Shown here: positions 6,541-53,728 of the stretch, piece after piece
How the letters are laid out: each line of letters starts with the position of its first letter
Numbering within the stretch: position 1 is the first letter of the stretch
NCBI GenBank assembly: GCA_004144175.1
Contig: SEFT01000005.1
Location: 1 to 64,000, forward strand
Length of the DNA stretch: 64,000 nt
Source: Sphingobacteriales bacterium
GTDB lineage: Bacteria > Bacteroidota > Bacteroidia > Chitinophagales > Chitinophagaceae
Direction of reading: 5' to 3'
The notes under the pieces: model-generated
Databases searched by the model: none
What the model was told of the DNA's origin: nothing
The model's input: only the letters and a program-made list of their open reading frames with translations
Position numbers and translations under genes: made by a program

Positions 6541-6558
6541 TCTTATTCAAAATTTTTA

Positions 6559-7174: not shown

Positions 7175-7873
7175 ATGACGTTACTTTATATACTGTTGTT
7201 GCAGGCTGATAGCATGGTAAATACTGCTGCCGCTGCCGCTACCCCTGCCGCAAAACAGGAAATATCACTACTCTATTTACTACAGGAAGGTGGCCTGCTG
7301 ATGATACCGCTGCTGCTTTGTTCTATACTACTGGTATATGTATTTGTGGAGCGACTGCTGGCTATTCGCAAGGCATCAAAAACTGACGATAGGTTTATGT
7401 CGCAGATAAGGGACCATGTTTCTGGGGGCAACCTGACAGCGGCACGCTCGCTGGCTAAAAACACCAATGGCCCAGTTGCACGAATGGTAGAGAAAGGACT
7501 GAACCGTATAGGCAAGCCGATCGATCATATCGAAAAGTCGATGGAAGCTACCGGTAAGCTGGAAGTTTACCAGATGGAAAAGAACATTTCCATACTGTCA
7601 ACCATATCGGGTATTGCTCCTATGTTTGGCTTCCTCGGTACTATCGCCGGTATGATCATCCTGTTCTTCAACATACAGCACCAGGGTTTTTCGCTGGAGA
7701 ATATTGCAGGCGGTATCTATACTAAAATGACCACATCGGCAGTCGGTTTGATCATTGGCTTGCTCGCTTATATAGCCTACAACTATCTGAACGCGCAGAT
7801 AAACAAGAACGTGAACCGCATGGAAGCCGCTTCGGTGGAGTTTTTAGACATATTGCAGGAGCCTGCCAGATAA
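7175..7873 (+). CDS. exbB: MotA/TolQ/ExbB proton channel family protein
   Basis: 232 aa from the chosen ATG at 7175; the frame is open from 7085, but that start lies within the terminator stem. Three membrane segments are visible: GGLLMIPLLLCSILLVYVFV (about 37-56 from this start), the conserved ISGIAPMFGFLGTIAGMIILF, and SAVGLIIGLLAYIAYNYL. With ExbD it forms an inner-membrane proton channel that energises TonB-dependent outer-membrane receptors or the Tol system. exbD follows after 11 bases, making an operon. Whether it serves TonB or Tol cannot be told; no tonB or tolB is adjacent. Confidence 0.9.
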   Translation: MTLLYILLLQADSMVNTAAAAATPAAKQEISLLYLLQEGGLLMIPLLLCSILLVYVFVERLLAIRKASKTDDRFMSQIRDHVSGGNLTAARSLAKNTNGPVARMVEKGLNRIGKPIDHIEKSMEATGKLEVYQMEKNISILSTISGIAPMFGFLGTIAGMIILFFNIQHQGFSLENIAGGIYTKMTTSAVGLIIGLLAYIAYNYLNAQINKNVNRMEAASVEFLDILQEPAR

Positions 7874-7884
7874 AAGCCTGAACG

Positions 7885-8289
7885 ATGAACCTGAGGAAAC
7901 GTCTGAGAGATACACAAGAAACGCACACATCGGCGCTGAATGATATCCTATTCATTCTGCTGCTGTTCTTCCTTATTATATCTACACTGGCAAATCCTAA
8001 TGTAGTAAAGCTGACCATACCTAAGGCACAAAGCGATACTAAAGCGAAACAGACCGTAGTGGTATCTATCGATAGCCTGCAACAGTTTTATGTAGGTACT
8101 GCTCCTGTAATGGTCGATTCACTACAGCCTGCCATTTCCACCATCATTGCTGCATCGCAGGATGCAGAGCCTACCGTGGTGATAAATGCAGATAAAAAAG
8201 CCGAAGCCGAAAGCATTGTAGCTGTGATGCGTGCTGCACGCGAACTGAACATCCGCACCGTACTGGCTGTAGATAATAACGCACGCTAA
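7885..8289 (+). CDS. exbD: ExbD/TolR family biopolymer transport protein
   Basis: 134 aa with one N-terminal membrane helix, ALNDILFILLLFFLIIS (about 17-33), that contains the conserved proton-carrying aspartate in LNDI. The rest is a periplasmic domain ending in VVINADKKAEAESIVAVM, the usual ExbD ending (the D-K-A-x motif). It pairs with the ExbB channel encoded 11 bases upstream. recG starts 33 bases later from its own promoter. Confidence 0.92.
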   Translation: MNLRKRLRDTQETHTSALNDILFILLLFFLIISTLANPNVVKLTIPKAQSDTKAKQTVVVSIDSLQQFYVGTAPVMVDSLQPAISTIIAASQDAEPTVVINADKKAEAESIVAVMRAARELNIRTVLAVDNNAR

Positions 8290-8301
8290 GCCGCTACGTG
8301 T

Positions 8302-8309
8302 TATTTTTG
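8302..8309 (+). promoter_or_regulatory. -7 element for recG
   Basis: TATTTTTG matches TAnnTTTG exactly and ends 13 bases before the TTG start at 8323, giving a very short leader. Confidence 0.55.
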
Positions 8310-8322
8310 CGTCCTAACTTGA

Positions 8323-22776: not shown

Positions 22777-22838
22777 AACAACCACTATAAAGATACAGGA
22801 AAACAATGCCCGGCTGTTCAGCCGATTGTCATAGCTGG

Positions 22839-30178: not shown

Positions 30179-30202
30179 CATTACCGTATTTCAAATAATT
30201 TT

Positions 30203-32511: not shown

Positions 32512-33834
32512 TTATGCACCAGGCACTGCCAGTTCCAAATCACTAACGGCCTTTCTTACAGGCAACGTTATTGTGAAATTGCTGCCTTCGTTTATCTTAC
32601 TCGTAACTGATATACTACCACCATGCTTCTCCACTATTTTCTTACATATAGATAAGCCAATACCAGTACCCTCATAGGTATCGAAGCTATGCAGGCGCTT
32701 GAAAACGGTAAATATCTGATCGGCATACTTCTGATCGAAGCCAATACCATTATCCTTTACATGTATCTGGTAATATTCTTCATCTGCAGATGCTTCCGGC
32801 AAGTTTAATACAGCTTCACCTCTTACCCTTTCAGCATAAATATCTACTTCAGGGCAGCAGTTTTCACGGCTGAATTTTAGGGAGTTGATGATAAGATTCT
32901 GGAATAGCTGTCGGAACTGGCTGGCAGCTCCATAAACAGTCGGCAGGTCTCCTATACGGAACACGGCCTTTTTTTGCTCTATTTGAATTTCCAGATCGGA
33001 CAATACGCCTTCTATTACGAGCTTCAGGTTAGTATCCTGCACTGCATCCTCAGCGGCCGTAGTAGTACGCGAGAAGGTAAGCAGGTTCTTGATAAGCAGC
33101 TGCATACGGCCTGATGCCTTCAGCATACGGTCGAGGAAGTCGTTACCATCATCGCCCAGCACCTCTTTATAGCGCGCCGACAAGCGGTCGCCAAAGATAA
33201 TGATCTTACGAAGCGGCTCTTGCAAATCATGCGAGGCCACATAGGCAAAACGTTCCAGTTCTTCATTGGTAAGCTTCAGCTGATTGATCTTCTCCATCAG
33301 CTGATTGTTCAGTTTTATTACCTGCTCCTCCGAGTTTCGGCGTTCCTGTATTTCGTTTTCCAGGTTTTTGTTGGCGGCTATCAGCTTTTGCTCCTGCGCA
33401 AGCAGCTGATGATTCTTATTATATAACTCAACAAATACAGCAACCTTTACCCTCAATAGTTCCGGATTGATAGGCTTGTAGATATAGTCTACACCACCCA
33501 TCTGGTAACCCTTGAACATATTTTCATCACCATGGTCGTTAGCGGTAACGAATATGATAGGTATATGCCTGAGCTTGTCGCGCTCATATATCATGGTGGC
33601 AGTTTCAAACCCGTTAAGGTCTGGCATCTGCACATCCATCAGTATCAGCGTAAAGTCCCACTCCTTCAATAATATCTTAAGCGCTGCCCTACCCGAAGTC
33701 GCCTTGCGTATCGTATATCCATCCGGTTCTAAAATAGTTTCGATCGAGAAGAGGTTATCTTCCCGATCGTCCACTACAAGTAATTTGATCTCAGGCTTTT
33801 GTACTACCAGATCTTCTTCAGTCAAAAAATCCAT
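32512..33834 (-). CDS. Response regulator-histidine kinase hybrid (REC-HisKA-HATPase)
   Basis: 440 aa, no membrane segment. The N-terminal receiver (about 15-135) has the acidic pocket VDDRED, phosphoacceptor D67 in LILMDVQMPD and the conserved lysine in YIYKP. A coiled coil (about 140-195) follows. The kinase has its H-box histidine H202 in VASHDLQEPLRK and an ATPase domain with DNGIGF and GTGIGLSICKKIVEKHGG. This is the phytochrome (Cph1)-type kinase module. It lies 10 bases downstream of the 2235-aa kinase, so it is probably cotranscribed and may receive phosphate from that kinase through D67. Confidence 0.92.
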   Translation of the reverse strand: MDFLTEEDLVVQKPEIKLLVVDDREDNLFSIETILEPDGYTIRKATSGRAALKILLKEWDFTLILMDVQMPDLNGFETATMIYERDKLRHIPIIFVTANDHGDENMFKGYQMGGVDYIYKPINPELLRVKVAVFVELYNKNHQLLAQEQKLIAANKNLENEIQERRNSEEQVIKLNNQLMEKINQLKLTNEELERFAYVASHDLQEPLRKIIIFGDRLSARYKEVLGDDGNDFLDRMLKASGRMQLLIKNLLTFSRTTTAAEDAVQDTNLKLVIEGVLSDLEIQIEQKKAVFRIGDLPTVYGAASQFRQLFQNLIINSLKFSRENCCPEVDIYAERVRGEAVLNLPEASADEEYYQIHVKDNGIGFDQKYADQIFTVFKRLHSFDTYEGTGIGLSICKKIVEKHGGSISVTSKINEGSNFTITLPVRKAVSDLELAVPGA

Positions 33835-33844: not shown

Positions 33845-36800
33845 CTATTTATACAGCCATACGCGCATCAGCGATAGTAGCTGGTCAATTTTTACCGGTT
33901 TCGTAATATAGTCAGACGCCCCGGCTTCAATACACTTTTCTCTGTCGCCTTTCATTGCTTTTGCAGTCACGGCAATAATAGGCAAGTTACTGTTTTTATG
34001 CTCTCTTCTTATCTTCTGTGTAGTTTCGTAACCATCCATTTCCGGCATCATGATGTCCATGAGTACCATGTCAATATTATTGTTTTCATTCAATATATTG
34101 ATCGCTTCCTGTCCGCTTTCTGCCGTTATGGTGTTTATATTATACTTCTCAAAAGCAGTAGTAAGCGCGAACAAGTTACGAACATCGTCATCGACTATCA
34201 ATATATTTTTTCCGGCCAGTACATCTTCTCTTAGCTTCAGGCTCTCGATCATCCTGCGTTTTTCAGGCAGCAGGTCTTTATGATTGAGGTGCAGGTGCAT
34301 CACCGTTTCTTCCAGCAGTAGTTCTAGTGAATTAACGCTTTTCAGCATCACCCTATTCGCATATTGCTTCAGCTGTGTTTTTTCTTTAGGGCTAAAGTCC
34401 TTGGCTGAATAAATAAGGATCGGCATCATCGGCTGCTTCTTGGCTGCACTTAGCTGCATCACATACTCCATACCAGTAACGTCAGGCAGCATATAGTCAA
34501 CAATTACGCAGTCGAAGTCGCTATCGGTTAGCTGTTTCAGTCCATCTTCGCCGGTGGTGGCTATTGTAATGTCAACCAATCCTTCATTATCAAGCACTTT
34601 AGCAATTTGCGAAGAATCCAGCTCATTGTCTTCTATTATAAGCAGCTTCTTAGTTCCGCGCTGATTGTAGGCTGCAATGTCGTTGAACAATATCTGCAGC
34701 GCCTCGTTCTTCAGCGGCTTCAGATGGAAGCTTCTTGCACCGCGCTTCATAGCCAGCAGCCTATTCTCCTCGCCCGATATCAGGTGTACCGGTATATGAC
34801 GGAAGTTCATATCGTTCTTAAAGAGATCAAGTATCTTCCAACCGCTCGCATCGGGCAGTTTTACATCCAGTGTTACAGCTATTGGGCTATATTTATTCAC
34901 CAGTTCAAATACTTCACCAAAGCTGGTTGCGATAATCACCTTCAGGTCCATTTCATGGGCCTTTTCTATCATTATCTTACCAAAGCGTATATCGTCCTCT
35001 ACAACAAGTACCACTTTATCGCTTGGCGTGATATTGTTTCGGTCGTCGCCTTTCTCGTTAATTATCTCGTTGAGTCCTTCCAAGTCGCGCTCTATTTTAA
35101 CGGTAGGCACTGACTGTATGGCAAGTTTCTCGTCGTTTTGAGCCAGCTCGTACTCGCTGATGGCAAGTGTGCTTTGCTTTTCCTTCTTCACCAGGTTCGG
35201 GTTGTAGTCGATAGGCAGGAAGAGCGTAAATGTACTACCCTCGCCCACAAAGCTATCCAGCTCAATAGAACCACCAAGCAGGTCGGCTAGACCGCGGCTG
35301 ATAGACAGACCAAGACCGGTACCACCATACTTACGGCTGGTAGAACCCTCGGCCTGCTGGAATGCTTCGAAGATGATGTTTTGCTTGTCTTTTGATATAC
35401 CAATACCGGAGTCTTTGATCTCGAAGGCAACCACATGTTTTGCTTCGTCGAGGCTCTTAAGCCCCATTTTCCAGTTGCCTTTTTCGGCCTTGTATATCTT
35501 GAACTTAACCTCACCTTTCTCTGTGAATTTGAAGGCATTAGATAGCAGATTCTTAAGTATCTGGTTAAGTCGCTGAATATCGGTTTCCAGCATATCCGGC
35601 AGGTTCTTATCGATGTCGATGCTGAACCTGAGGTTCTTGCTATCGGATACGTGTTTGAAGGTTGTTTCCACAAACGATACGATTTCGTAGAACCGAACGT
35701 TGATAAAGTCGGCAGATATATAGCCCGACTCGATCTTCGAAAGGTCGAGGATATCGTTGATCAGCTGGATAAGGTCATCACCGCAGCTGTGGATGGTCTT
35801 CGCATAGCGTATCTGCTTCTCGGTAAGGTTACCTTCGTTGTTCTCGAAGAGCTGCTGCGCCAGGATAAGTAGCGAGTTAAGCGGCGTACGCAACTCGTGC
35901 GACATGTTGGCAAGGAACTCCGATTTGTACTTGGAAGTAAGGGTAAGCTGCTCCGCTTTTTCTTCGAGCGATTTCCTGGCTTCCTCCACCTCTTTGTTCT
36001 TGGCTTCCACCTCTTCTTTCTGTTTTACCAGCAGGTGGGCTTTGTCTTGCAGTTCTTCGTTCGTTCTTCTCAGCTCTTCGGCCAGCGACTGTGATTGCTC
36101 CAGCAGCTGCTCTGTCCTCGAGTTGGTCTCGATCGTGTTCAGTACGATACCGATACTTTCTGTAAGCTGGCTTAAGAAGTCAAGGTGCGTTTCGCTGAAT
36201 ACATCGAACGATGCCAGCTCGATAACGGCCTTGATATCCTTTTCAAACAGTACAGGCAGTACGATCAGGTTGAGTGGCGTAGCCTGGCCCAATCCTGATT
36301 TTATCTTTATATAATTCTTAGGAACATTGCTTAATAGAATTCTTTCTTTGGTCAATGCCACTTGGCCTACCAAACCTTCACCCAGCGATATTTCTTTATT
36401 TACATTGATCTCCTGGCTATGCGCATAACCGGCAAAGAACTGGAGTTTCCTGTTCTCATCGTTTTCATCCTGCTCCAGAATGTAGAACATACCGTGCTGT
36501 GCGTTTACCACCTGTGCCAGCTCCGACAGGATACGGCGCGTTACCGTATTCAGGTCTTTCTGGCCTTGAAGCATCTGCGTGAACTTGGCAAGGTTGGATT
36601 TCAGCCAGTCTTGCTCCTGGTTACGTAGCGTTGTTTCTTTCAGGTTGGCGATCATCTGGTTGATCGTATCTTTCAGCTCTTCCACCTCACCTTTCGCCTC
36701 CACACGGATCATTCGGGTAAGGTCACCTTTCGTTACCGCCGACGCTACCTCAGAGATGGCACGTACCTGAGTCGTCAGGTTTTCCGCCAGCTGGTTCACG

Positions 36801-39800
36801 TTTTCGGTCAGTGTCTTCCAGATACCCGATGCACCCGGCACGTTTGCCTGTCCACCAAGTCGACCTTCCACACCCACCTCACGAGCGACGGTAGTTACCT
36901 GGTCGGCAAATACCGCCAGCGTATCGATCATCTCATTGATCGTATCGGTCAGCTGGGCTACCTCGCCACGAGAGCTGATCGAAAGTTTTTGTTTCAGGTT
37001 ACCGGTTGCCACCGAAGTTACAACCTTGGCTATACCACGCACCTGGTTCGTCAGGTTCGAGGCCATCATGTTTACCGAGTCGGTAAGGTCTTTCCAGGTA
37101 CCGGCCACACCTTTTACCTCGGCCTGTCCGCCCAGCTTACCTTCCGTACCCACCTCACGCGCCACACGCGTTACCTCGAAGGCGAAGGAGTTCAGCTGAT
37201 CCACCATGGTATTGATCGTGTTCTTCAAGTCGAAGATCTCGCCTTTTACGTCGATGGTTACTTTCTTCGAAAGGTCACCACTCGCCACCGCTTTCGTTAC
37301 TTCGGCGATATTACGTACTTGCGATGTCAGGTTACCGGTCATCTGGTTTACCGAGTCGGTAAGATCTTTCCAAATTCCACCCACACCCGGTACGAAGGCC
37401 TGGCCACCGAGTTTACCATCGGTACCCACCTCACGCGCCACACGCGTTACCTCAGAGGCAAAGGCGCGGAGCTGATCCACCATCGTGTTCAGCGTTTCCT
37501 TCAGTTGCAGGATCTCACCGCGCACATCCACCGTAATCTTACGCGACATGTCACCATTCGCCACCGCGATGGCCACATCAGCAATGTTACGTACCTGTGC
37601 CGTCAGGTTACCCGCCATCTGGTTTACCGAATCGGTCAAATCCTTCCATGTACCAGCCACACCAGGCACGTTCGCCTGTCCACCCAGTTTACCATCGGTA
37701 CCCACCTCACGCGCCACACGCGTTACCTCGGATGCGAAGCCGCGGAGCTGTTCCACCATCGTATTGATCGTGTTTTTCAGCTCCAGTATCTCACCTTTTA
37801 CATCCACCTCGATCTTGCGCGACAAGTCACCGTTTGCCACCGCCGTGGTTACCTCGGCAATGTTACGTACCTGCGCCGTAAGGTTCGAGGCCATTTTATT
37901 TACAGAATCTGTTAAGTCTTTCCATGTACCGGCAACACCTGGTACGTCTGCCTGACCACCCAGCTTACCTTCCGAACCCACCTCACGGGCCACACGCGTT
38001 ACCTCCGAACCGAAAGAGTTCAGCTGATCCACCATCGTGTTAATCGTGTTTTTCAGCTCGAGGATCTCACCTTTTACATCCACCGTAATTTTACGGGAAA
38101 GGTCACCCTTCGCCACCGCCGTTGTTACCTCAGCAATGTTACGCACCTGTGCCGTCAGGTTAGAGGCCATTTGGTTTACCGAATCGGTCAAATCCTTCCA
38201 TGTACCACCAACACCTTGCACCTTGGCCTGACCACCCAGCTTACCTTCTGTACCCACCTCAAGGGCCACACGGGTCACCTCGGATGCGAAAGAGTTCAGC
38301 TGATCCACCATCGTATTGATGGTCTTTTTAAGCTCGAGGATCTCACCTTCTACGTTTACCGTAATCTTCTTAGAAAGGTCACCACTCGCCACCGCCGTAG
38401 TTACCTCGGCAATGTTACGCACCTGTGCTGTCAGGTTCGAGGCCATCTGGTTAACCGAGTCGGTAAGGTCTTTCCATACACCACCTACACCTTTTACCTT
38501 GGCCTGGCCACCCAGCTTACCTTCTGTACCTACCTCGAGGGCCACACGAGTCACCTCTGATGCGAAGGAGTTCAGCTGATCCACCATCGTGTTGATCGTA
38601 TTTTTCAGCTCCAGGATCTCGCCCTGCACATCCACCGTAATCTTTTTAGAAAGGTCACCGTTTGCCACCGCCGTTGTTACCTCGGCGATATTACGCACCT
38701 GTGCGGTCAGGTTACTACCCATCTGATTCACAGAATCGGTAAGGTCTTTCCATACACCACCGGCACCTTTTACTATAGCTTGTCCACCCAGTTTACCTTC
38801 CGAACCCACTTCACGGGCAACACGCGTTACCTCTGAGGCGAAGGAGTTCAGCTGGTCCACCATCGTGTTGATCGTATTTTTCAGCTCCAGGATCTCACCC
38901 TGTACGTCCACCGTAATTTTCTTGGAAAGGTCACCACTCGCCACCGCCGTTGTTACCTCGGCGATGTTACGCACCTGTGCCGTCAGGTTACTACCCATCT
39001 GGTTTACCGAGTCGGTAAGGTCTTTCCATACACCACCGACACCTTCCACCGTTGCCTGGCCACCCAGCTTACCTTCCGAACCCACCTCACGCGCCATACG
39101 TGTTACCTCGGATGCGAAGGAGTTCAGCTGATCCACCATCGTATTGATCGTATTTTTCAGCTCCAGGATCTCACCCTGTACATCCACTGTAATTTTCTTA
39201 GACAGGTCGCCCTTTGCCACCGCCGTTGTTACCTCGGCAATGTTACGCACCTGTGCCGTCAGGTTACTACCCATCTGATTCACAGAATCGGTAAGGTCCT
39301 TCCATACACCGGCTACGCCTTTTACCTTGGCCTGACCACCCAGCTTACCTTCCGAACCCACCTCACGCGCCACACGGGTTACCTCGGCAGAGAAGGAGTT
39401 CAGCTGATCCACCATCGTATTCATCGTATTTTTCAGCTCCAGGATCTCACCTTTTACGTCCACCGTGATCTTACGTGAAAGGTCACCCTTTGCCACCGCC
39501 GTAGTTACCTCGGCAATGTTACGCACCTGCGCCGTAAGGTTCGAGGCCATCTGGTTCACCGAGTCGGTAAGGTCTTTCCAGGTACCGGCTACACCTTTTA
39601 CCTGTGCCTGGCCGCCCAGCTTACCTTCCGTACCTACCTCCAGGGCCACACGCGTTACCTCGGATGAAAAGGAGTTCAGCTGATCCACCATCGTATTGAT
39701 CGTATTTTTCAGCTCCAGGATCTCACCTTTTACATCCACGGTAATCTTACGGGAAAGGTCACCCTTCGCCACCGCCGTAGTTACCTCGGCAATGTTACGC

Positions 39801-40552
39801 ACCTGCGCCGTCAGGTTAGAGGCCATCTGGTTTACCGAATCGGTTAGGTCTTTCCACACACCAGCTACACCTTTTACCTTGGCTTGTCCACCCAGCTTAC
39901 CTTCCGTACCCACCTCCAGGGCCACACGGGTTACCTCCATCGAGAAGAGGTTAAGCTGTTTTACCATGTCGTTAACCTCGCGCGCAATACGGGAAAACTC
40001 CCCTTGCAGCACGTGGTCGCCTATTTGCATCGGCATCTGTTGCGACAAATTGCCTTTCGCCACCGAGCTAATTACCCCGGCTATCTCAATAGTCGGGTGT
40101 ACAAGGTCGGATATAAGTGTATTCAGCGATTCTACACCATCATTCCATTGCCCGCGGGCATATGGTATTTCTATACGGTGTGTTAGCTTACCTTGTTTAC
40201 CAATTACATTACTCGCCTTGGTGAATTCCTGCGTCATTTTGCCGTTCAGCAAAATGATATCGTTCACCATGTCGCATATCTTACCGCTGATACCTACCTG
40301 ATCGATGGGCATACGCACATCGAAATTTCCGTTACGGACTTCTGTAAGAACGCTTAGAAGCTCTTTATATAGATCGTCCGACGGTCTGGTATCATATATA
40401 TGTCCGTTTGTAGCCGCGGATCCACCATTTTGTGTGGATTTAGCCTTTCCCCGTTTTGGGGATTTAGCTTCTGTCGCAGGCGTCACATCGTTTACGTCAG
40501 TTGTTTCTGAAATCATTTCGGGCTCTATTGTAACATCGTTGGTATTATCCAT
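33845..40552 (-). CDS. Poly-HAMP hybrid histidine kinase with GAF and three receiver domains
   Basis: 2235 aa, cytoplasmic (no signal or membrane helix). Order: disordered N terminus (1-60), N-terminal HAMP-like region (60-205), twelve tandem 92-residue repeats (206-1309), GAF (about 1325-1475), coiled coil (1480-1540), HisKA with H1552 in [10 protein letters not shown], HATPase (1660-1780; [16 protein letters not shown]), then REC1 (D1896), REC2 (D2019) and REC3 (D2166 in [11 protein letters not shown]). Each repeat equals two HAMP units of about 46 residues, as in fungal Nik1-type osmosensing kinases. Poly-HAMP chains relay conformational signals. The input signal is unknown; GAF may bind a small ligand. 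REC-HK follows after 10 bases. Confidence 0.93.
36626..39937. repeat. Twelve tandem 276-bp repeats encoding poly-HAMP units
   Basis: The unit is 92 codons, beginning EVTRVAxEVG and passing through [29 protein letters not shown] and [17 protein letters not shown]. The first ten copies are strikingly alike at both protein and DNA level; the last two, next to the GAF domain, have drifted. Copies alternate subtly (VALEVGTEG or VAREVGSEG) in blocks, suggesting duplication of multi-unit segments. Confidence 0.95.
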
Positions 40553-44561: not shown

Positions 44562-46085
44562 ATGAAATTGAAAACCAGATACCGGCTGATATGGATACGG
44601 GCAATGATGGTAGTAAGCCAGGTGCTGCTGATCGTACTCATATGCAGTTGGCTATTTTCTCAATACGATGATGAGAAGGCTACTTTACAAAAAGACCTGA
44701 ACGCTGCATTGTCTGCGACCAAGCAAAAAGTAGCCGACTCGCTCATCATGCAAAAGTTTGTAAAGCCACTGGTGAGCGGTCTCCAAAACACCTCATCTAA
44801 GAATATTAATATAAAGTACTCCTCCGCGCCTGCTTTAAATGTCCCGCATAGCGAGTTTGTGCTGGTAGCAGACGACAGCAATAATGTAGAGATCAATAAA
44901 GAAACCGGCGATGTAAAAATAAGAGGCCTAAGAGCAACTAATTCTAAGAATAAACCACAAACCAAGGTTGTAAGACATAAAAAGGTAGTATCGACGGACC
45001 TCGACGAGCAGGCAAGGGAAAAGCTGGCCATGCCGCTTGTATCGGCGGTAATGCAGGAGCTTGTGAACGAAGGCTTTTTACCTGACGAGTCAGAACATCC
45101 CTTCAGTAAAATGGACACTACGCGCTTTCACTACCTCTTTGCAAAGCGTATGGAGGATAACGGCTGGAACTTTAATACTACCTGGCTTAAAACCAGGAAG
45201 CAGTTTGCCGGCAGCGACAAGCACATGCTGTTGCAGACAGATTTTTATGGCAAGTTGTTCTTTGTACAGGTTAGCGGCTACGAATCTTACCTGGTTAAGA
45301 TGATAACCCCGCAGATATTATTTACACTGATACTACTATCGCTTACCGCCATGGCCTTCCTCGTTACCTATCGCACACTAAGAGAGCAGATGCGCCTTAG
45401 CAGCGTCAAGAACGAGTTTATCAGCAATATGTCACACGAGTTGAAAACACCTATATCTACCGTGAAGGTGGCGCTGGAAGCGCTTACCAACTTCAATATG
45501 ATGGAGAATCCGGTGATAACACGCGAGTACCTGCAAATGGCATCGCATGAAATGAACAGGCTGGATATGCTGGTGAACCAAACGCTGAATGCGGCCCTGC
45601 TGGAGGAAGGCAAACTGGTGGTGCGCAAAGAAAAAGAAGACCTGCAACAGATACTGTCAGATACCGTACGAGTATTGCAGATAAGAATACAGCAATACCA
45701 GGCAAGCGTACAAGTAAATGCAGAAGGCAATAACTTTTTAACTGAAGCCGACAGACTGCACATACAGGGCGTGCTGGTAAATCTGATAGACAACGGCTTG
45801 AAATACTCAGGCAATAATCCCGAGATAACCATTGACATCCGGGAAAAAGAGCGACAAATTGAAATATCAGTCTCCGATAATGGTCCCGGAATACCGGAGG
45901 AATATCTGAATAAGGTATATGACAAATTCTTCCGGGTACCCACGGATAACCGGCATAATGTAAAAGGGTATGGACTTGGTCTGAGCTACGCTTACCAGAT
46001 AATGCAGCAGCACAACGGACAAATAACCGCACATAACAGGAAAGAAGGTGGCTGCACATTTACCTTAACTTTCCCAAAGGCATAA
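44562..46085 (+). CDS. Membrane-bound sensor histidine kinase
   Basis: 507 aa. Two membrane helices (about 11-29 and 249-267) bracket a periplasmic sensor domain of about 220 residues without recognised motifs. The cytoplasmic kinase has H-box FISNMSHELKTPISTVK, N-box LVNLIDNGLKYS, G1 SDNGPGIPEEY and G2 GYGLGLSYAYQI. It would autophosphorylate on the H-box histidine and pass phosphate to the regulator whose gene begins 1 base after its stop. A promoter-like TTACTTTG lies at 44532-44539. Confidence 0.93.
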   Translation: MKLKTRYRLIWIRAMMVVSQVLLIVLICSWLFSQYDDEKATLQKDLNAALSATKQKVADSLIMQKFVKPLVSGLQNTSSKNINIKYSSAPALNVPHSEFVLVADDSNNVEINKETGDVKIRGLRATNSKNKPQTKVVRHKKVVSTDLDEQAREKLAMPLVSAVMQELVNEGFLPDESEHPFSKMDTTRFHYLFAKRMEDNGWNFNTTWLKTRKQFAGSDKHMLLQTDFYGKLFFVQVSGYESYLVKMITPQILFTLILLSLTAMAFLVTYRTLREQMRLSSVKNEFISNMSHELKTPISTVKVALEALTNFNMMENPVITREYLQMASHEMNRLDMLVNQTLNAALLEEGKLVVRKEKEDLQQILSDTVRVLQIRIQQYQASVQVNAEGNNFLTEADRLHIQGVLVNLIDNGLKYSGNNPEITIDIREKERQIEISVSDNGPGIPEEYLNKVYDKFFRVPTDNRHNVKGYGLGLSYAYQIMQQHNGQITAHNRKEGGCTFTLTFPKA

Positions 46086-46086
46086 T

Positions 46087-46791
46087 ATGAAAACAAGAAT
46101 ACTGTATATAGAGGACGAGCCGTTCCTGGCAAGGATAGTGAAAGAGACACTGGAACTGAAAGGCTACGAAGTGCATCACAAAACAGATGGCACCAGGATA
46201 ACAGAGCTGGTGGGCGACTTCAGGCCCGACATATGCATCCTCGATGTAATGCTGCCGAATACCGATGGCTTTTCGCTGGGCAATATGATACGGAATACGC
46301 ACCCGCGCCTGCCTATTATCTTTCTTACAGCGAAGACCCAGACTGAAGACGTAATAAAAGGCTTTGCATCAGGTGGTACCGATTATTTAAAAAAGCCATT
46401 CAGTATGGAAGAACTGATGGTTCGTATCGAAAATCAGCTCCGTATGGCGGGTGCTGAAAAGAACAATACCGATAATGTACCGGAAGAAATAGTAATGGGT
46501 AAGGTCAGGTTTTATCCCCGCAAGTATGAGCTGCTTGCCGCAGATAAAGTCATCAAGCTATCTAACCGCGAGTCACAAATCCTTAGCATTTTCTGCAACA
46601 ACCGTAACAACACCATAGACCGCCGCATGTTGTTACAAACGGTATGGGGCGATGACTCTTTCTTCAACTCCCGCAATCTGGATGTGTACATCCGGAAGCT
46701 GCGCGAATATCTGTCTGCCGAGCCAAATATTGAGATCATTACACTAAAAGGTAAAGGCTACCATTTTGTTGTAAGTGCCTCTGTTATATAA
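46087..46791 (+). CDS. OmpR/PhoB family response regulator
   Basis: 234 aa. The receiver domain (1-120) has the acidic pair in YIEDEPF, phosphoacceptor Asp in CILDVMLPNTDG, and the lysine in DYLKKPF. The C-terminal winged helix (about 140-232) has LSNRESQILSIFCNN, VWGDDSFFNSRNLDVYIRKLR and ITLKGKGYHFV, the OmpR type. Its start lies 1 base after the kinase stop, so the two are cotranslated. It likely binds the GGTTAA boxes upstream of the operon and controls the divergent GLPGLI/outer-membrane genes. Confidence 0.95.
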   Translation: MKTRILYIEDEPFLARIVKETLELKGYEVHHKTDGTRITELVGDFRPDICILDVMLPNTDGFSLGNMIRNTHPRLPIIFLTAKTQTEDVIKGFASGGTDYLKKPFSMEELMVRIENQLRMAGAEKNNTDNVPEEIVMGKVRFYPRKYELLAADKVIKLSNRESQILSIFCNNRNNTIDRRMLLQTVWGDDSFFNSRNLDVYIRKLREYLSAEPNIEIITLKGKGYHFVVSASVI

Positions 46792-46941: not shown

Positions 46942-46968
46942 TAAACAATACTTTATTGTTTAGATTTG
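46942..46968 (+). promoter_or_regulatory. Operator-like palindrome abutting the -7 element of the phytochrome operon
   Basis: TAAACAATA (46942-46950) is mirrored exactly at 46954-46962 around CTT, a 21-bp inverted repeat. It merges with the exact -7 element TAGATTTG (46961-46968), 67 bases before the heme oxygenase ATG. A bound regulator would sit over the -33/-7 spacer. Confidence 0.6.
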
Positions 46969-47018
46969 TTATCCTCGCAGGCCATTGCAGGTGGGCTGTA
47001 CAAAGCCCTGAGAAGTAC

Positions 47019-47031
47019 ATTACAATGTAAT
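47019..47031 (+). promoter_or_regulatory. Short inverted repeat just before the heme oxygenase start
   Basis: ATTACA-A-TGTAAT lies 4 bases before the ATG at 47036, in the untranslated leader. It could be a second operator or a small mRNA hairpin. Confidence 0.3.
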
Positions 47032-47035
47032 TTTT

Positions 47036-47614
47036 ATGATACTGCAACGTTTGAGATCAGAGACGAAAGAAGCGCATCAGGCTCTTGAAAAGCTGATTAT
47101 CCCCAGGATAAAAAACATAAGAAGCAACGAAGATTACATCTCGTTGCTCAATCTGTTTTATGGCTATTTCAAGCCGGTAGAAGGCTTGCTTTATCAACAC
47201 CTCAGCGACAAAGAAGTCCCTGCATTTTCGGAAAGACGGAAGTCAGGCAGCATAGTTAATGACATCCAGTCCGCAGGTGGTGAGTCTACCGACGTTGTAT
47301 GTACCAATTTACCATCTATCAGCAATAGTAACGAAGCGATGGGTGCCATGTACGTAATGGAGGGATCTACCCTCGGTGGTAAGATCATCAGCAAAATGAT
47401 ACAACAGGCACTGTCTTTACCAACAGACGAGTCGGTATCGTTCTTCAAAGGCTATGGCGAATCTTCTGATGAAATGTGGGCCTCCTTTACCCATGCATTG
47501 GATCATCATACTACCGATCCTCAGCAGCAGGACCAGATAGCAGAAGCAGCCAACAATACCTTTGTAAAGTTTAAAAACTGGGTTGAGCATAACACCGTAG
47601 CCCGACAGAATTGA
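47036..47614 (+). CDS. bphO: Biliverdin-producing heme oxygenase
   Basis: 192 aa. It cleaves heme to biliverdin, CO and iron. The proximal heme ligand is H14 in ETKEAHQALE, and the distal-helix glycines appear as YVMEGSTLGGKIISKM. The length fits bacterial phytochrome-associated oxygenases. It is followed after 9 bases by the phytochrome gene, which needs biliverdin as chromophore, so BphO is the natural name. Electron donor unknown. Confidence 0.93.
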   Translation: MILQRLRSETKEAHQALEKLIIPRIKNIRSNEDYISLLNLFYGYFKPVEGLLYQHLSDKEVPAFSERRKSGSIVNDIQSAGGESTDVVCTNLPSISNSNEAMGAMYVMEGSTLGGKIISKMIQQALSLPTDESVSFFKGYGESSDEMWASFTHALDHHTTDPQQQDQIAEAANNTFVKFKNWVEHNTVARQN

Positions 47615-47623
47615 TTTACCTCC

Positions 47624-49162
47624 ATGCAGAAAAAAAACTACGACTCCGATTTTTGTGGCTCAGTACCGTTGAACTTCATAAATCAAATACAGCCTTATGG
47701 CTTCCTGGTGATCCTGAAACGCAGCGATCTTTCCATTATACAGGTTAGCCAGAATATTGCCGGCTTATTGAATGAAGAACCTGATCAATTGATCAATAAA
47801 TCATTTAATCAATTTGTTGAAGAACAAGAAACCAAAGTGTTTCATACCAGGTTTGAAAACAAGGTCGACAAACTGCCTGTACCGCTTACAATAAATGCTA
47901 ACGGACAACGTAAAAAATATTTGGCTATTACCCATGCTAAAGAAGAATACTTTATACTGGAAATAGAAGAAGTACAATCAAAAGATGATAAGGATAATTC
48001 CTTTATCAGTGTATACCAAGACATTAAACAGGCAGCATATGCTATCGAAAGTGCTGATACGGTAGAAGATGCGTACGACATCACGCTACGCGAATTAAAG
48101 CGCATATCAGGCTTTGATAAGATCATGATCTACCAGTTCGACAAAGACTGGAATGGTATTGTGGTTGGTGAGATTCAGGAAGAAGGGATGGAATCTTACA
48201 TGGGGCTTCGTTTTCCTGCATCCGATATACCTAAACAAGCCAGGCAATTATATCTTAAGAATCCATACCGGCAGATACCTGATTGCAATTACACGCCTGT
48301 AAAGCTCTATCCTATCATTAACCCGTTGACACAGACTTTCATTGATCTTTCGGATTGCAATATACGAGGGGTACCTGCGGTACATACTGAGTATTTGCGC
48401 AACATGAAGATTAGCGCATCTATGTCCACGCGTATCATCAAGGACGAAAAACTTTGGGGACTTATTTCTTGTCACCACCGCGATCCTAAGTTCCTGAGCT
48501 ATGAACTATGCTCTGTGTTCGAGTTGCTTTCGGGTATTCTTTCTGCCAAGTTTTCGTCTATTCAAAACAAGGAAGAATATGATTACTCCAGCAGGCTGCA
48601 GGAGATCCACGCTAAACTTGTGGAGCAGATATATAGGCAAGGGAATGTGGTAGAGGCAATTTCAAATGGTGATTCTACCATCCTCGATCTGCTAAACATA
48701 GAGGGTGCAGCAATCAGCTATAAGAAAAACCTGGAAACCGTTGGTAAAACTCCGGATAAAAATAGCCTAAAAGACTTGATTATCTGGCTGCAAACCAATA
48801 ATATAGATAAAACATTCCACACAACTGAGCTGTCAGATGTGTATGAGGATGGCTTAAAATTTACCGATATAGCCAGTGGCATGATTGTATTGCCAATACA
48901 TGCTGAGAAAGGCGAATACATACTAGGCTTTAGACCAGAAGTAGTCGAAAAAGTAAACTGGGGAGGTAATCCCGATGAAGCGATAAATTTTGAGAAGGAT
49001 GGTAAGAACTATCATCCCCGAAATTCGTTTAAGTTATGGCAGCAGACTGTAAAGAATACCAGCCTGCCATGGCAAAAACATGAGTTGACCGTTGCAGAGA
49101 ATTTCAGGAATGTGTTGGTTGAATATGCATTGAAGAAATACAATCCTGACGTTGCAAAATAA
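47624..49162 (+). CDS. bphP: Bacteriophytochrome photosensory module (PAS-GAF-PHY) without output domain
   Basis: 512 aa, all of it sensor. The N-terminal PAS has the biliverdin-attachment cysteine C11 ahead of INQIQPYGFL. The GAF domain has FPASDIPKQARQLY (D201), PAVHTEYLRNM (H254) and GLISCHHRDP. The PHY domain has the tongue VNWGGNPDEA and HPRNSFKLWQQ (PRxSF, 465-469). After the PHY domain only about 30 residues remain, so the kinase or other effector usually fused here is missing. The next gene, 12 bases on, encodes a Cph1-type kinase and is the likely partner. Red/far-red switching is expected. Confidence 0.93.
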   Translation: MQKKNYDSDFCGSVPLNFINQIQPYGFLVILKRSDLSIIQVSQNIAGLLNEEPDQLINKSFNQFVEEQETKVFHTRFENKVDKLPVPLTINANGQRKKYLAITHAKEEYFILEIEEVQSKDDKDNSFISVYQDIKQAAYAIESADTVEDAYDITLRELKRISGFDKIMIYQFDKDWNGIVVGEIQEEGMESYMGLRFPASDIPKQARQLYLKNPYRQIPDCNYTPVKLYPIINPLTQTFIDLSDCNIRGVPAVHTEYLRNMKISASMSTRIIKDEKLWGLISCHHRDPKFLSYELCSVFELLSGILSAKFSSIQNKEEYDYSSRLQEIHAKLVEQIYRQGNVVEAISNGDSTILDLLNIEGAAISYKKNLETVGKTPDKNSLKDLIIWLQTNNIDKTFHTTELSDVYEDGLKFTDIASGMIVLPIHAEKGEYILGFRPEVVEKVNWGGNPDEAINFEKDGKNYHPRNSFKLWQQTVKNTSLPWQKHELTVAENFRNVLVEYALKKYNPDVAK

Positions 49163-49174
49163 ATATTAATACAA

Positions 49175-52100
49175 GTGAGTAATAGCGCTGGCACAGAAGA
49201 AACTGCGGGACAATCAACAACTAAAATGCTCAAAGACAAGAAAAATGAGCATTTTATTATAGCCATTGGTGCGTCTGCGGGTGGCCTGGAGGTGATACAC
49301 GACTTCTTCGACAACATGACGGAGTCGGATAATCTATCTTTTGTTATTATACAGCACCTTTCGCCCGATTACAAGAGTTTGTTGGTAGAACTGGTATCCA
49401 AGCATACCGATATGCAGGTATTTGAGGCCACCGACGGTATCAAAGTCGACCGCAGGTGTATCTATGTCATTCCGCCAAGGAAGACCATGAAAATATCTGA
49501 TGGCCACCTCCGGCTAACGGATAAGGAAACTACAGACAAAGGCCCGAACACCGCCATCGATATTTTCCTTCACTCGCTGGCTCAGGATAAAAAGGAAAAA
49601 GCAATAGCCGTTATTTTGTCCGGTACCGGTACCGACGGAACGAGGGGTATCGAGACAATCAAAGATTGCGGTGGGCTGGTAATAGTACAAGATCCGGATT
49701 CTGCCAGGTTCGACGGTATGCCTAGGAGCGCCATTGCATCGGGGCTAGTCGATATGATCTTAACGCCGGAGCAGATACCCGGTGAAATAATAAACTACAT
49801 ACACGACGATATACCTTCCGGAATATTCAAAGACAATAAGGTTGATGAAGAAATACTGGAAGAGATCTTTAAGCTGATATTCAAGAAAACAGGCTGCGAT
49901 TTTCATCATTATAAGCTGCCTACCCTTCTGCGCCGCATTACAAAGCGCATGTTGCACCTGAACCTTAAAAAGATAGAGGAATATATAAGTGTACTACAGA
50001 ACGACCAGGAAGAATGTAAAATACTGGGCAATGACTTTCTGATAAACGTTACCAGATTTTTTAGGGACAAAGATGCCTTTGAAGCGCTGGAAAGAGAGGT
50101 CTTTCCGGGCATAGTAAGTAGCAAGACCGAAGATGATGTAATCAAGATATGGATCTCAGCTTGCAGCACGGGCGAGGAAGCTTACTCCGTAGCCATGCTG
50201 CTGGATAGATATCTGAAGAAAGTAGATAAATTGATACCGGTGAAAATATTTGCCACCGATATCGATTCAGGGGCTATAGAAACAGCTGCCCGTGGGCAGT
50301 ACCCGGTAAGTATTGAAAATGACATTGCGCCGGATATTCTTGATGCATATTTTATCAAGGGCTCAGGCAGGTACCATATTATTCCGGAGATACGGAAACA
50401 GATCGTATTTGCGCGGCACAATATCATAAAAGATCCGCCCTTCATAAAGAATGACCTGGCCACTTGCCGGAACATGCTTATTTACATGACGCCTGCGCTG
50501 CAAAAGCGGGTGCTCAATGTGCTGCATTTTTCGCTAGCAAAGGGCGGCTACTTGTTCCTAGGCTCTAGCGAAACAATTGCCGGTGTAAAGGAGAGCATGA
50601 CCGAAGTAGATCGTAAGTGGAAGATCTACCGGAAGAGCGAACATACGTCTTCACGTATGTTCAATTACGAACGGTCGCAGGATTATCAGCCGCTTTCCCG
50701 GACTATGAAGCCTGATATTGATGGTGCTAATACTTCCAAACAGTTGACGAAAGGACTTGTCGACGATTTCAAAGACATTCTTTCTGAAGACAGTGGATTT
50801 GCCGCATTGTACATTGACAAAAATTACGAAGTAAAAGAAGTAGCCGGCGACTTTCGTAAGTATCTTTCTTTACCCGACAGGTTTATGAATATGAACCTGC
50901 TAAAAATGGTGTCGGCTAGCTTAGGGGCAGTACTGAATTCATCTCTACGTAAAGCCTGGAAAGACAATAAAAAGGTAATAGCCAATAATGTTGTATTGAA
51001 TGACGGCGGAACAACCCGTTCATTAAATATCATTGTGAAACCGGGGAATAGCGTTTCCTATACAACGATCGTAATTGGAGAAACGGGAAATGCACCCACT
51101 GTAAAAGCCGAGATCGATCTGAGCTCGATAGATGGTGAACAGCATCAATACATTTCGGACCTAAAAGCAGAGTTGTCCGAAACAAAACATCACCTGCAAA
51201 CGGTGATCGAAGAACTGGAGACAACAAACGAGGAATTACAGTCCAGCAATGAAGAGTTGCTCTCCTCTAATGAAGAACTGCAAAGCTCGAACGAAGAGCT
51301 GCAGTCGCTGAATGAAGAGCTACACACGCTGAATACGGAGCACCAGCTCAAAATCAGCGAATTAATAGAGCTGAACGATGATCTCGATAACTATTTCCGC
51401 AGCACGGATATCGGTCAGATTTTCCTCGATTCGAGACTACATATACGCAAGTTCAATCCGGCTGCTGTTAAACTCATCAACCTTATTGAGACAGATATAG
51501 GCCGGCCCTTCGCGCATATATCCAGTAATATAAGGTACGACAACATTCAAAATGAGATACAGAATGTAGTAAAGAACAAAGCCGTAATAGAAAAAGAGGT
51601 AATACTGTATAATGGCAAGACAAGCCTGATGAGAATATATCCCTACATCAGGCAGGATAAGCATATAGACGGTGTAGTACTTACTTTTGTGGATATAAGT
51701 GCAGTAAAAGACCTCAACAACATCATTAATGGTGTGTTTAATGCCAGCCAGAATGCGATTATGGCACTAAAGGCAGTGAGGAACAACGATGGGCAGGTTA
51801 TAGACTTTAAGTGGATTGCAGTAAATGATAGCACCGAGAAGATATATAATCGCAAGATAGACGAGATCATCGGGCGAAAACTGAAAGAACTATACCCTGA
51901 TGTAGTTGATAAAGGATTGTATGGCAAGTACCTGGAAGTGCTGCACACAGGCAAGCCACTCCATATGGAGTATCCATACAAATGTGAAGAACGCGAGGGC
52001 TGGTGGGATGTTACTGCCGTAAAGATGATTGATGGGCTGGCCGTAACTTTTACAGATATAACAGAGAAAAAAGAAGCAGAAGAAAGGATCAGGGCCAACT

Positions 52101-53728
52101 ACCTGGAGCTGATAAATACCAAGGAGAAGCTGAAGAAGCTGAACGAAGAGCTGGAAGATTCGGTGGCAGAGCGAACGCATAGGCTTGCATCGAGCGAAGA
52201 GCGCTTCAGGCTTGTAACCAAGGCGACGAACGATGCCATATGGGATTGGGACCTCGTGAATAATACCATTTGGTGGGGCGAAAGCTTCTTCAATATGTTT
52301 GGCTACGATAAAGAAGAAATCACCAATGTAAATTACTGGCTCGAGAAAGTACATCCAGAAGATCAGGCACGCGTTAAGCAAAGTATCTACAAAGAGATCA
52401 ATAATAACGAAAAGCAGTGGTCGTCCGAATATCAATTCAGGAAAGCAGATGGTAGCTATGCCCTGCTGCTCGACCGCGGCTACATTTTGCACAACGAGAA
52501 CGATATACCGTATCGTATGCTCGGTTCTATGATGGACATTACAAGCCTGCGTGCAGCGCAAGCCGAGGTTATATCTAATATAGAGCAACGTGAGTTTCTG
52601 GCAGAGTCTATGCCGCTGATCGTATGGACAGCCGAGGCGCATGGAAGTGTAACATTCCTAAACCAGAGCTTCACCGCATATACAGGCATACCCGTCGACA
52701 AGGCGCTACAATTTGGCTGGCTCAAATGTGTGGCTGATGACAGCATCGAAGAATTAAAAGAAGCGCTGAAAAACGCCATCAAATCAAAGAATGATTTCTC
52801 CCTCGAACTGAAATTGAAACGGCAAGACGGAAACTATAGATGGTTCTTGTTAAGAGCTCGCGCCAAAAAAGATGCAGATGGTAAGATTCTGATGTGGGTC
52901 GGTACCAATACCGATATACATGAGCAAAAACTTACCAATGAGATACTGGAGCAGCGTGTGCGGGAAAGAACACTTGAGCTGCAGCATACGAATGAGGAAC
53001 TGGAAAATAGTAACCATGACCTTCAACAATTTGCATCAGTAGCATCGCATGACCTTAAAGAACCGCTTAGGAAGATTCACATGTTTAGCACCATCCTTCG
53101 CGATAAGCACCTGGCTGAGCTGGATGGTTCCGCAACCTACCTCGAGCGTATCATCAGCTCATCGGCAAGGATGACCAAGCTTATAAACGATCTGTTGAGC
53201 TTTTCAAGGCTGTCCGCAGTTAATCTGTTCGAGCCGGTAAACCTCAACAGCGTAATAAACGAAATACTGGCCGATCTGGAGCTATTCATTGAGGAGAAGG
53301 AGGCATCGGTAAATATCGTGCAGAAGATACCGATCATCGAGGCAATACCCGGTCAGATGCGCCAGCTGTTTCAAAACATCATTAGCAACGCACTCAAATT
53401 TACAAGGCCTGGATTAAAGCCTGAGGTGAACATTACGTCAGCACTTATCGCTAAAAAATCGTTTGAAAGTGTAGAGTCGGCAGATGGAAAATTCTGCCGT
53501 ATCAGCATCAGCGATAATGGAATAGGATTTGACGAGCAATATCTAAACAAGATATTTACCATATTCCAGCGTCTGCACACGAAGCAGGAGTACGAGGGTA
53601 CTGGCATCGGCCTGGCTATATGCAAAAAGATCGTCGAGAAACATAGTGGATTATTGACTGCCAGTAGTAAAGAGGATGAAGGGGCTACCTTTACCTTTAT
53701 ACTGCCCTTGAAGCAGATAAAAGATTAA
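49175..53728 (+). CDS. CheB-CheR-PAS-histidine kinase fusion protein
   Basis: 1517 aa from a GTG start (an in-frame ATG at 49226 is an alternative). Order: CheB methylesterase (27-205; S34 in GASAGG, H61 in QHL, D154 in GTGTDG), CheR methyltransferase (about 225-490; ISACSTGEEAYS, FATDID, CRNMLIYM), a helical coiled coil of NEELQSS repeats (657-745), four PAS domains (about 735-850, 855-965, 1005-1125, 1140-1250), HisKA with H1292 in SHDLKEPLRK, and HATPase (DNGIGF, GTGIGLAICKKIV). Such cytoplasmic CheBR kinases lack a receiver. It closes the phytochrome operon and ends in a terminator. Confidence 0.93.
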   Translation: MSNSAGTEETAGQSTTKMLKDKKNEHFIIAIGASAGGLEVIHDFFDNMTESDNLSFVIIQHLSPDYKSLLVELVSKHTDMQVFEATDGIKVDRRCIYVIPPRKTMKISDGHLRLTDKETTDKGPNTAIDIFLHSLAQDKKEKAIAVILSGTGTDGTRGIETIKDCGGLVIVQDPDSARFDGMPRSAIASGLVDMILTPEQIPGEIINYIHDDIPSGIFKDNKVDEEILEEIFKLIFKKTGCDFHHYKLPTLLRRITKRMLHLNLKKIEEYISVLQNDQEECKILGNDFLINVTRFFRDKDAFEALEREVFPGIVSSKTEDDVIKIWISACSTGEEAYSVAMLLDRYLKKVDKLIPVKIFATDIDSGAIETAARGQYPVSIENDIAPDILDAYFIKGSGRYHIIPEIRKQIVFARHNIIKDPPFIKNDLATCRNMLIYMTPALQKRVLNVLHFSLAKGGYLFLGSSETIAGVKESMTEVDRKWKIYRKSEHTSSRMFNYERSQDYQPLSRTMKPDIDGANTSKQLTKGLVDDFKDILSEDSGFAALYIDKNYEVKEVAGDFRKYLSLPDRFMNMNLLKMVSASLGAVLNSSLRKAWKDNKKVIANNVVLNDGGTTRSLNIIVKPGNSVSYTTIVIGETGNAPTVKAEIDLSSIDGEQHQYISDLKAELSETKHHLQTVIEELETTNEELQSSNEELLSSNEELQSSNEELQSLNEELHTLNTEHQLKISELIELNDDLDNYFRSTDIGQIFLDSRLHIRKFNPAAVKLINLIETDIGRPFAHISSNIRYDNIQNEIQNVVKNKAVIEKEVILYNGKTSLMRIYPYIRQDKHIDGVVLTFVDISAVKDLNNIINGVFNASQNAIMALKAVRNNDGQVIDFKWIAVNDSTEKIYNRKIDEIIGRKLKELYPDVVDKGLYGKYLEVLHTGKPLHMEYPYKCEEREGWWDVTAVKMIDGLAVTFTDITEKKEAEERIRANYLELINTKEKLKKLNEELEDSVAERTHRLASSEERFRLVTKATNDAIWDWDLVNNTIWWGESFFNMFGYDKEEITNVNYWLEKVHPEDQARVKQSIYKEINNNEKQWSSEYQFRKADGSYALLLDRGYILHNENDIPYRMLGSMMDITSLRAAQAEVISNIEQREFLAESMPLIVWTAEAHGSVTFLNQSFTAYTGIPVDKALQFGWLKCVADDSIEELKEALKNAIKSKNDFSLELKLKRQDGNYRWFLLRARAKKDADGKILMWVGTNTDIHEQKLTNEILEQRVRERTLELQHTNEELENSNHDLQQFASVASHDLKEPLRKIHMFSTILRDKHLAELDGSATYLERIISSSARMTKLINDLLSFSRLSAVNLFEPVNLNSVINEILADLELFIEEKEASVNIVQKIPIIEAIPGQMRQLFQNIISNALKFTRPGLKPEVNITSALIAKKSFESVESADGKFCRISISDNGIGFDEQYLNKIFTIFQRLHTKQEYEGTGIGLAICKKIVEKHSGLLTASSKEDEGATFTFILPLKQIKD

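Follow-up and report, generated by a model that had tools for sequence, protein, structure and literature searches.

The locus described here raises the question of how a bacteriophytochrome without an output domain could pass on a light signal, and whether the large kinase encoded directly behind it serves as its partner. It lies within a window (the whole stretch of DNA analysed) of 64,000 nucleotides from contig SEFT01000005.1 of a Sphingobacteriales bacterium. The first-pass annotation had inferred a two-protein photoreceptor in which the phytochrome controls a kinase that also carries methylation and demethylation domains. This reading is supported by the current study; physical contact between the proteins, photoconversion, and a light effect on the kinase or on methylation have not been shown.

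Gene organisation of the locus

The gene order, open reading frames, strands and short intergenic spacings claimed previously were all reproduced from ORF coordinates and Pfam matches, with 9 nt separating bphO from bphP and 12 nt separating bphP from the CheB-CheR kinase gene. The start given for the region (nt 46942) is not a gene start, the bphO start codon being located downstream of it at nt 47036. The three genes are:

nt 47036–47614, + strand: bphO, heme oxygenase, 192 aa (Pfam Heme_oxygenase, 4.8e-19)
nt 47624–49162, + strand: bphP, output-less bacteriophytochrome of PAS-GAF-PHY type, 512 aa (Pfam PAS_2, GAF, PHY)
nt 49175–53728, + strand: CheB-CheR-PAS-histidine kinase, 1517 aa, GTG start (ORF and Pfam)

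A genome-wide profile search returned bphO as the sole heme oxygenase match.

The output-less phytochrome

Bacteriophytochromes are recognised by an N-terminal Cys preceding the PAS domain, a DIP motif, a histidine in the chromophore pocket and a PRxSF tongue. The Pfam matches of BphP make up a complete PAS_2, GAF and PHY photosensory module, and the sensor features that had been claimed (C11, PASDIP at residues 198–203, H254, and the tongue with R466 in PRxSF) were each found at the places assigned to them. No variation was seen at C11, D201, H254, R466, S468 or F469 among 29 split phytochromes. The relevant positions are:

nt 47654–47656, + strand: Cys11 codon, presumed biliverdin attachment site, invariant in 29 split phytochromes
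nt 48215–48232, + strand: PASDIP motif, residues 198–203 (sequence position)
nt 48599–49138, + strand: PHY domain (Pfam), the C-terminus of BphP lying 7 residues beyond the match

The role of Cys11 is one that we take from established knowledge of bacteriophytochromes. The protein had been described as ending about 30 residues after the PHY domain; the actual tail is even shorter, as the Pfam match extends to residue 505 of 512. In the AlphaFold2 model (mean pLDDT 87.6) the last helix spans residues 485–506. BphP falls below the cut-off of the NCBI equivalog model for BphP, NF041576 (312 bits against 1040), which it matches over positions 6–511 of 622. The nearest solved sequence is 9jry (FiDCB), followed by Cph1 (2vea).

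Domains and active sites of the CheB-CheR kinase

The fusion of CheB, CheR, four PAS domains and a kinase proposed for the third gene was borne out by Pfam, which reports CheB, CheR_N, CheR, four PAS stretches, HisKA and HATPase_c. The features of this protein are as follows:

nt 49259–49789, + strand: CheB methylesterase domain without receiver; S34, H61, D154 (Pfam; Foldseek)
nt 49856–50623, + strand: CheR methyltransferase, N-terminal and SAM-binding domains (Pfam; Foldseek)
nt 50735–51082, + strand: possible extra PAS-like domain, kinase residues ~521–636 (AlphaFold2 secondary structure)
nt 51140–51400, + strand: single long helix, kinase residues 656–742 (AlphaFold2 model, 87 residues continuous)
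nt 51209–51319, + strand: Glu-Glu array, candidate methylation sites, E679 to E714/E715 (sequence pattern)
nt 51383–51697, + strand: PAS_10 domain (Pfam)
nt 51803–52072, + strand: PAS_4 domain (Pfam)
nt 52190–52561, + strand: PAS_3 domain, weak docking candidate (in every complete linked partner)
nt 52586–52924, + strand: last PAS domain (Pfam)
nt 53021–53215, + strand: HisKA, H-box SHDLKEPLRK, H1292 (Pfam, alignment)
nt 53354–53713, + strand: HATPase_c, ATP-binding kinase domain (Pfam, alignment)

The CheB match begins at residue 29 and Pfam found no Response_reg match in the protein, hence there is no N-terminal receiver. Foldseek comparisons of the modelled parts gave 5ftw for CheR (TMt 0.87), and 3sft (TMt 0.83) and 1chd (TMt 0.80) for CheB. 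At residues ~521–636, where Pfam has no match, the predicted pattern of strands and helices would be compatible with a fifth, PAS-like domain. The model of residues 13–860 has a mean pLDDT of only 75.0 and a pTM of 0.40, so the arrangement of its domains relative to each other is unreliable.

The residues expected to form the active sites are preserved throughout the proteins linked to short phytochromes (see below). All 47 linked proteins, one duplicate among them, have S34, H61 and D154 of CheB and G333, E335, Y337, D362, R407 and N433 of CheR; CheR E334 is replaced by Gln in 9 of the 47. The HisKA histidine and the N, G1 and G2 boxes of HATPase_c are present in the studied kinase and in all 46 linked proteins that include the region, as are residues H1292, N1405, D1447, G1449 and G1475 (one duplicate is included, and the 47th protein is cut). 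The H-box SHDLKEPLRK, with H1292 as phospho-acceptor, stands as previously described. The label of a Cph1-type kinase is only roughly right, as in the kinase tree this domain groups with CheB-CheR kinases and not with the 25 nearest ordinary fused phytochrome kinases.

Conservation of the gene pair

Non-conservation of the CheB-CheR kinase beside such phytochromes had been named in advance as grounds for refutation. The pair proved to be conserved. PHY domains were detected at 66 places in 60 of 394 genomes of the same GTDB family, and all 66 regions were inspected. The phytochromes of the family are bimodal in length, with 28 short (497–558 aa) and 38 long (728–901 aa) members, and a protein combining CheB, CheR and a kinase is encoded directly downstream of 26 of the short forms and none of the long. 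One short phytochrome (L039) instead lies beside a 795-aa PAS-kinase without CheB/CheR, and for another (L056) no kinase was found in the adjoining DNA. A search of 395 genomes across the phylum added a single short phytochrome outside the family (L128), again with a CheB-CheR kinase. Among the best 80 named loci there were 21 short phytochromes, 20 of them with a CheB-CheR neighbour, and 59 long ones, all without. The named positives belong to Flavipsychrobacter, Mucilaginibacter, Flavisolibacter, Pontibacter, Pedobacter, Chitinophaga and an unclassified Chitinophagaceae bacterium, while a short phytochrome of Granulicella (Acidobacteria; L244) has no CheB/CheR neighbour. Pontibacter populi (L177) is one of the species with the pair.

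When family, phylum and named loci are pooled, 46 of the 49 distinct short phytochromes have a CheB-CheR gene following on the same strand, and none of the 97 long ones does (38 from the family and 59 named). One named locus (L172, Flavisolibacter ginsengisoli DSM 18119) duplicates a family locus (L042), which places Flavisolibacter, of the Chitinophagaceae, in the family searched; it is excluded from these pooled counts (46) and retained in the active-site counts given above (47). The gap between phytochrome and CheB-CheR gene in linked pairs ranges from -161 to +67 nt. The 97 long-phytochrome loci contained no CheB or CheR at any position, though six of them (L076, L091, L096, L197, L225, L242) offer less than 1500 nt of downstream DNA. 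Beyond the 97, the six extra-familial regions fetched from the phylum search that encode fused phytochromes (L148–L153) also had no CheB-CheR. The Fisher p for short versus long adjacency, 8e-35, overstates the evidence, since the rows are related and not independent. Judged by these genomic comparisons, the pairing of the two genes is genuine, occurs widely in Bacteroidota, and is specific to phytochromes without an output domain.

Other parts of the operon are less constant. Of the 46 linked loci, 23 have a bphO gene on the same strand no more than 300 nt upstream, and in 17 an Rcp1-like single-domain regulator follows the kinase gene within 250 nt (with weak scores in L053, L176 and L218). 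No response regulator is encoded within 250 nt downstream of the kinase at the studied locus.

Co-inheritance and fused relatives

The 28 short phytochromes of the family, together with three fused phytochromes that fall inside the group, form one clade (support 100/100, branch length 1.37). In the tree of CheB-CheR parts, 27 linked proteins group together (100/98), and the only other sequence in their clade is L144, a CheB-CheR kinase encoded 227 nt from a bphO gene with no phytochrome in between. Pairwise distances of phytochrome and CheB-CheR are correlated (r = 0.839 over 46 pairs, equalled in 0 of 2000 permutations). For 26 loci compared with bphO as well, the correlation of phytochrome with bphO distances is likewise 0.839, and that of phytochrome with CheB-CheR is 0.889. 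Because bphO also correlates, these values speak more for an operon passed on as a unit than for contact between its products, and a shared species history alone would also yield a correlation between phytochrome and CheB-CheR distances.

The fused relatives within the split clade carry, according to Pfam, either PHY-PAS-HisKA (L072, L078) or PHY-HisKA (L070), so that the HisKA-HATPase unit is fused to the sensor. In the kinase tree, their kinases and that of L039 are placed among the partner kinases, within a set of 32 rows (99/91) which also contains three other CheB-CheR kinases. The tree with this set was restricted to 88 of 116 rows, leaving out long or odd rows, other kinases and the three exchanged kinases. 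A constraint joining the three fused kinases to the 25 ordinary fused kinases was rejected (p-AU 0.039). The grouping of the three with the partner kinases rather than with ordinary fused ones is thus weakly supported by the trees, as the p value is 0.039 and the group was named post hoc. An origin of the three from within the partner clade could not be established, as the nested and sister placements gave AU values of 0.467 and 0.552 and neither was rejected. Of the indirect evidence that a stand-alone phytochrome may feed kinases of this kind, the fused relatives are the strongest part.

Constant and variable parts of the partner kinase

Scored against the kinase domain of the studied protein, 27 of 46 linked proteins reach at least 250 bits and 18 reach only 43–90 bits, the remaining one being cut by a contig end. 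The low-scoring group consists of L032, L053 and L128, which lie in another clade of the kinase tree, plus 15 proteins of Mucilaginibacter, Pedobacter and Pontibacter. What stays constant in the partner protein is CheB-CheR, the long helix that bears the array, and PAS_3; the kinase domain varies.

Among the accessory domains, only PAS_3 occurs in every complete linked protein (45 of 45); it is also found in the neighbour kinase of L039, which has no CheB/CheR. In a threshold-based comparison, all positions conserved only in the linked group fell inside it (kinase residues 1006–1129), because four of the five nearest unlinked relatives have no PAS_3. The PAS_3 of the studied kinase scores 201.7 bits, the next in the genome 92.5, and PAS_3-type regions of other kinases 99–151 bits. 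A phytochrome was absent from all seven fetched regions encoding other kinases with such a domain. PAS_3 was therefore rejected as a phytochrome-specific docking domain, and since the same type occurs in kinases without an adjacent phytochrome, docking through it is a weak lead only.

A candidate methylation array

If CheB and CheR are active, what they modify is not obvious, as searches of the studied genome (97.62% complete) found no methyl-accepting chemotaxis protein (MCP) and no CheW. MCPs are also absent from 27 of the 28 other split-phytochrome genomes (the exception being G288), i.e. a chemoreceptor is absent from 28 of the 29 tested. Elsewhere in the genome, additional stand-alone cheR-cheB pairs lie next to other large kinases.

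A candidate substrate lies within the kinase itself. Between CheR and PAS_10 the model has one unbroken helix of 87 residues, which bears six Glu-Glu pairs spaced 7 residues apart, from E679 to E714/E715. Four of the pairs (E679, E686, E693, E700) fit the MCP methylation consensus if Ser, Thr or Ala is permitted at both last places. If a run is defined as at least two heptads of [EQ][EQ]xx[AST][AST], runs occur in 46 of 46 linked proteins and in 29 of 29 other CheB-CheR proteins (75 of 75 together). None of 101 fused phytochromes has one, and the only others were seen in 2 of 88 kinases outside the CheB-CheR set and in 1 of 842 remaining ORFs of at least 300 aa. The three exceptions are accounted for by an ORF containing CheR (L137, L173) or by a contig end just before the array (L229). 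The four members of the split group that have lost CheB/CheR (L039, L070, L072, L078) have no heptad run, and shuffling of the linked sequences gave a three-pair array in only 1 of 940 cases. Two points of method apply to these figures: the criterion was composed after the array had been noticed, and the 29 controls were picked by hand among the matches listed, not at random.

Runs of three or more heptads are found in all 46 linked proteins compared with 13 of the 29 other CheB-CheR proteins. The array as such is not specific to light sensing, since it is common to CheB-CheR kinases without a phytochrome. Its tie to CheB/CheR fits a substrate in cis, but common descent of linker and domains would also link them. 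We lean by a small measure towards CheB and CheR acting on the array within their own protein or dimer, methylation itself being inferred.

Alternative explanations and proposed mechanism

That the phytochrome and the CheB-CheR kinase are functional partners is considered very likely, with contact and light control inferred. An artefactual split of an ordinary fused phytochrome kinase, by assembly error or frameshift, can be dismissed for practical purposes: nothing was found to support it, and it is refuted by the recurrence of the same split, with the same kind of CheB-CheR protein, at 46 distinct loci. Mere co-expression is harder to set aside. The phytochrome might signal to other proteins while the kinase uses its PAS domains to detect a different stimulus, and some bacteriophytochromes do act on separate partners, an example being the one that works with PpsR2; L056 and L244, which stand without a CheB-CheR neighbour, would also agree with this. 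Against it are the contrast in adjacency (46/49 versus 0/97), the matching phylogenies and the existence of fused versions, and we regard it as improbable.

Whether the methylation enzymes serve this kinase is less certain. Phytochrome and kinase could be partners while CheB/CheR modify another protein in trans, or act merely as a scaffold. The array may be nothing more than a coiled-coil linker, and the stand-alone cheR-cheB pairs near other large kinases imply that methylation enzymes are more widely used without MCPs. Against this stand the active-site residues, invariant in 47 of 47 proteins, and an array that fits the MCP consensus and is missing in the four members that lost CheB/CheR; we judge this explanation unlikely, though by no means negligible. 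Light-controlled methylation of other cell proteins could also be the true output and the kinase secondary, as suggested by the constancy of CheB-CheR beside a kinase domain that in 18 linked proteins is unlike the studied one. The fused relatives and L039 have retained the kinase and lost CheB/CheR, so this appears very improbable.

Our preferred reading is a two-protein red/far-red photoreceptor kinase in which CheB/CheR methylate the kinase's own helix, to which we assign a probability of roughly 0.55 in the absence of any experiment. It starts from what can be read in the sequences themselves: the operon, its conservation and co-inheritance, the intact active-site residues, the absence of MCP and CheW from the genome as searched, and the tie between array and CheB/CheR. 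BphO would make biliverdin, which the stand-alone phytochrome is inferred to bind. By an inferred contact, the phytochrome would then influence, in trans, the region of the CheB-CheR kinase that holds its PAS and kinase domains, conferring an inferred light effect. The kinase may in turn phosphorylate a single-domain Rcp1-like regulator, adjacent in some relatives and here presumably encoded elsewhere, which is likewise an inference. CheR and CheB would methylate and demethylate the heptad-spaced Glu pairs of the long helix, an inferred reaction that may adjust or reset the response to the prevailing light, much as these enzymes do for chemoreceptors, in a cell that has none. A broader proposal is that this represents chemoreceptor-free adaptation, the fused CheR/CheB writing and erasing methyl groups on the kinase's own helix with the phytochrome feeding in light, and that the wider CheB-CheR-PAS-kinase family does likewise with other inputs. 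It is tentative, and we place it slightly short of even odds.

Relation to known systems

The system is best placed as a variation on phytochrome two-component signalling, in which the sensor is detached and the kinase comes with methylation enzymes of its own. With the BphP/Cph1 systems it shares the photosensory module, the Cys and tongue motifs, a bphO neighbour, a HisKA-type kinase and, in 17 of 46 cases, an adjacent Rcp1-like regulator; it differs in that sensor and kinase are separate proteins, and in the CheB, CheR and multiple PAS domains present in the kinase. CheB-CheR-PAS-histidine kinase fusions are themselves numerous in the family (CheR matches occur in 229 of 394 genomes) and have the same CheB-CheR-helix-PAS_10 start and a similar Glu-Glu array. 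The partner clade is distinguished from them by its tie to phytochromes and by PAS_3, absent from four of the five nearest unlinked relatives. Compared with MCP-CheA-CheW chemotaxis, the CheR/CheB folds, the active-site residues and the Glu-Glu pairs fitting the methylation consensus are held in common, whereas here MCP and CheW are lacking, CheB has no receiver, and the enzymes, the candidate substrate and the kinase reside in one chain. Ppr of Rhodocista centenaria is a fused phytochrome-containing photosensor kinase whose kinase domain binds CheW (PMC2993699), and it too connects a phytochrome photosensing kinase with chemotaxis components; the present system has no CheW, and its CheB and CheR share a chain with a kinase distinct from the sensor.

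A literature search of titles and abstract openings, with few subscription papers covered, returned no description of an output-less phytochrome beside a CheB-CheR kinase. We know of no established job for the methylation domains of CheB-CheR-PAS-kinases in these genomes. For one clade of them a phytochrome partner would represent a defined and controllable input, and light could therefore be used as a switch to test the role of methylation in vitro. If the proposed reading is true, one two-protein complex would combine sensing, signalling and memory, would constitute a natural two-part red-light kinase useful for optogenetics, and would to our knowledge be the first light sensor with built-in covalent adaptation. 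The studied genome also encodes a second phytochrome, fused to a kinase, on another contig.

Variation at phytochrome loci

At one locus fetched for comparison (L144, nt 2905–8219), bphO adjoins a CheB-CheR kinase that belongs to the phytochrome-linked clade, i.e. the tree clade of CheB-CheR proteins encoded beside short, output-less phytochromes. The 227 nt between bphO and the kinase, where the phytochrome would be expected, contain no phytochrome ORF, and the gene has apparently been lost from this locus.

Among the best 80 phytochrome loci with an organism name, the top-scoring phytochromes from outside the Bacteroidota (L186–L189 and L191) are fused proteins of cyanobacteria, for the most part Nostoc, with a regulator and a large kinase encoded downstream of each. 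The acidobacterium Granulicella sp. dw_53 (L244) carries an output-less phytochrome of 523 aa with a heme oxygenase; no CheB-CheR is found at that locus, and the kinase there is convergent.

Related genes in the same genome

Stand-alone cheR-cheB pairs occur elsewhere in this genome, which lacks MCPs, on contig 66 (L253, nt 6661–8072) and contig 68 (L254, nt 7330–8719). Large kinases adjoin both, and the Glu-Glu runs of these kinases are short (3 and 2 pairs).

Immediately 5' of bphO in the window (nt 44562–46791, + strand), a histidine kinase is encoded together with a regulator of the OmpR type, the top NCBIfam match of the latter being RprY, with a score below the RprY cut-off. In comparison loci L054 and L168 the upstream region encodes, on the opposite strand, a kinase of 489 aa together with a short regulator.

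Other genes in the window are:

20509–25091, - strand, two of four FG-GAP repeat proteins
27926–32452, + strand, the other two FG-GAP repeat proteins
32512–33834, - strand, receiver-HisKA-HATPase protein (440 aa), adjoining the following hybrid kinase
33845–40552, - strand, hybrid kinase (2235 aa) with 12 HAMP stretches, GAF, HisKA, HATPase_c and three receiver domains

All four FG-GAP repeat proteins are 749–765 aa in length and carry Por_Secre_tail sorting domains.
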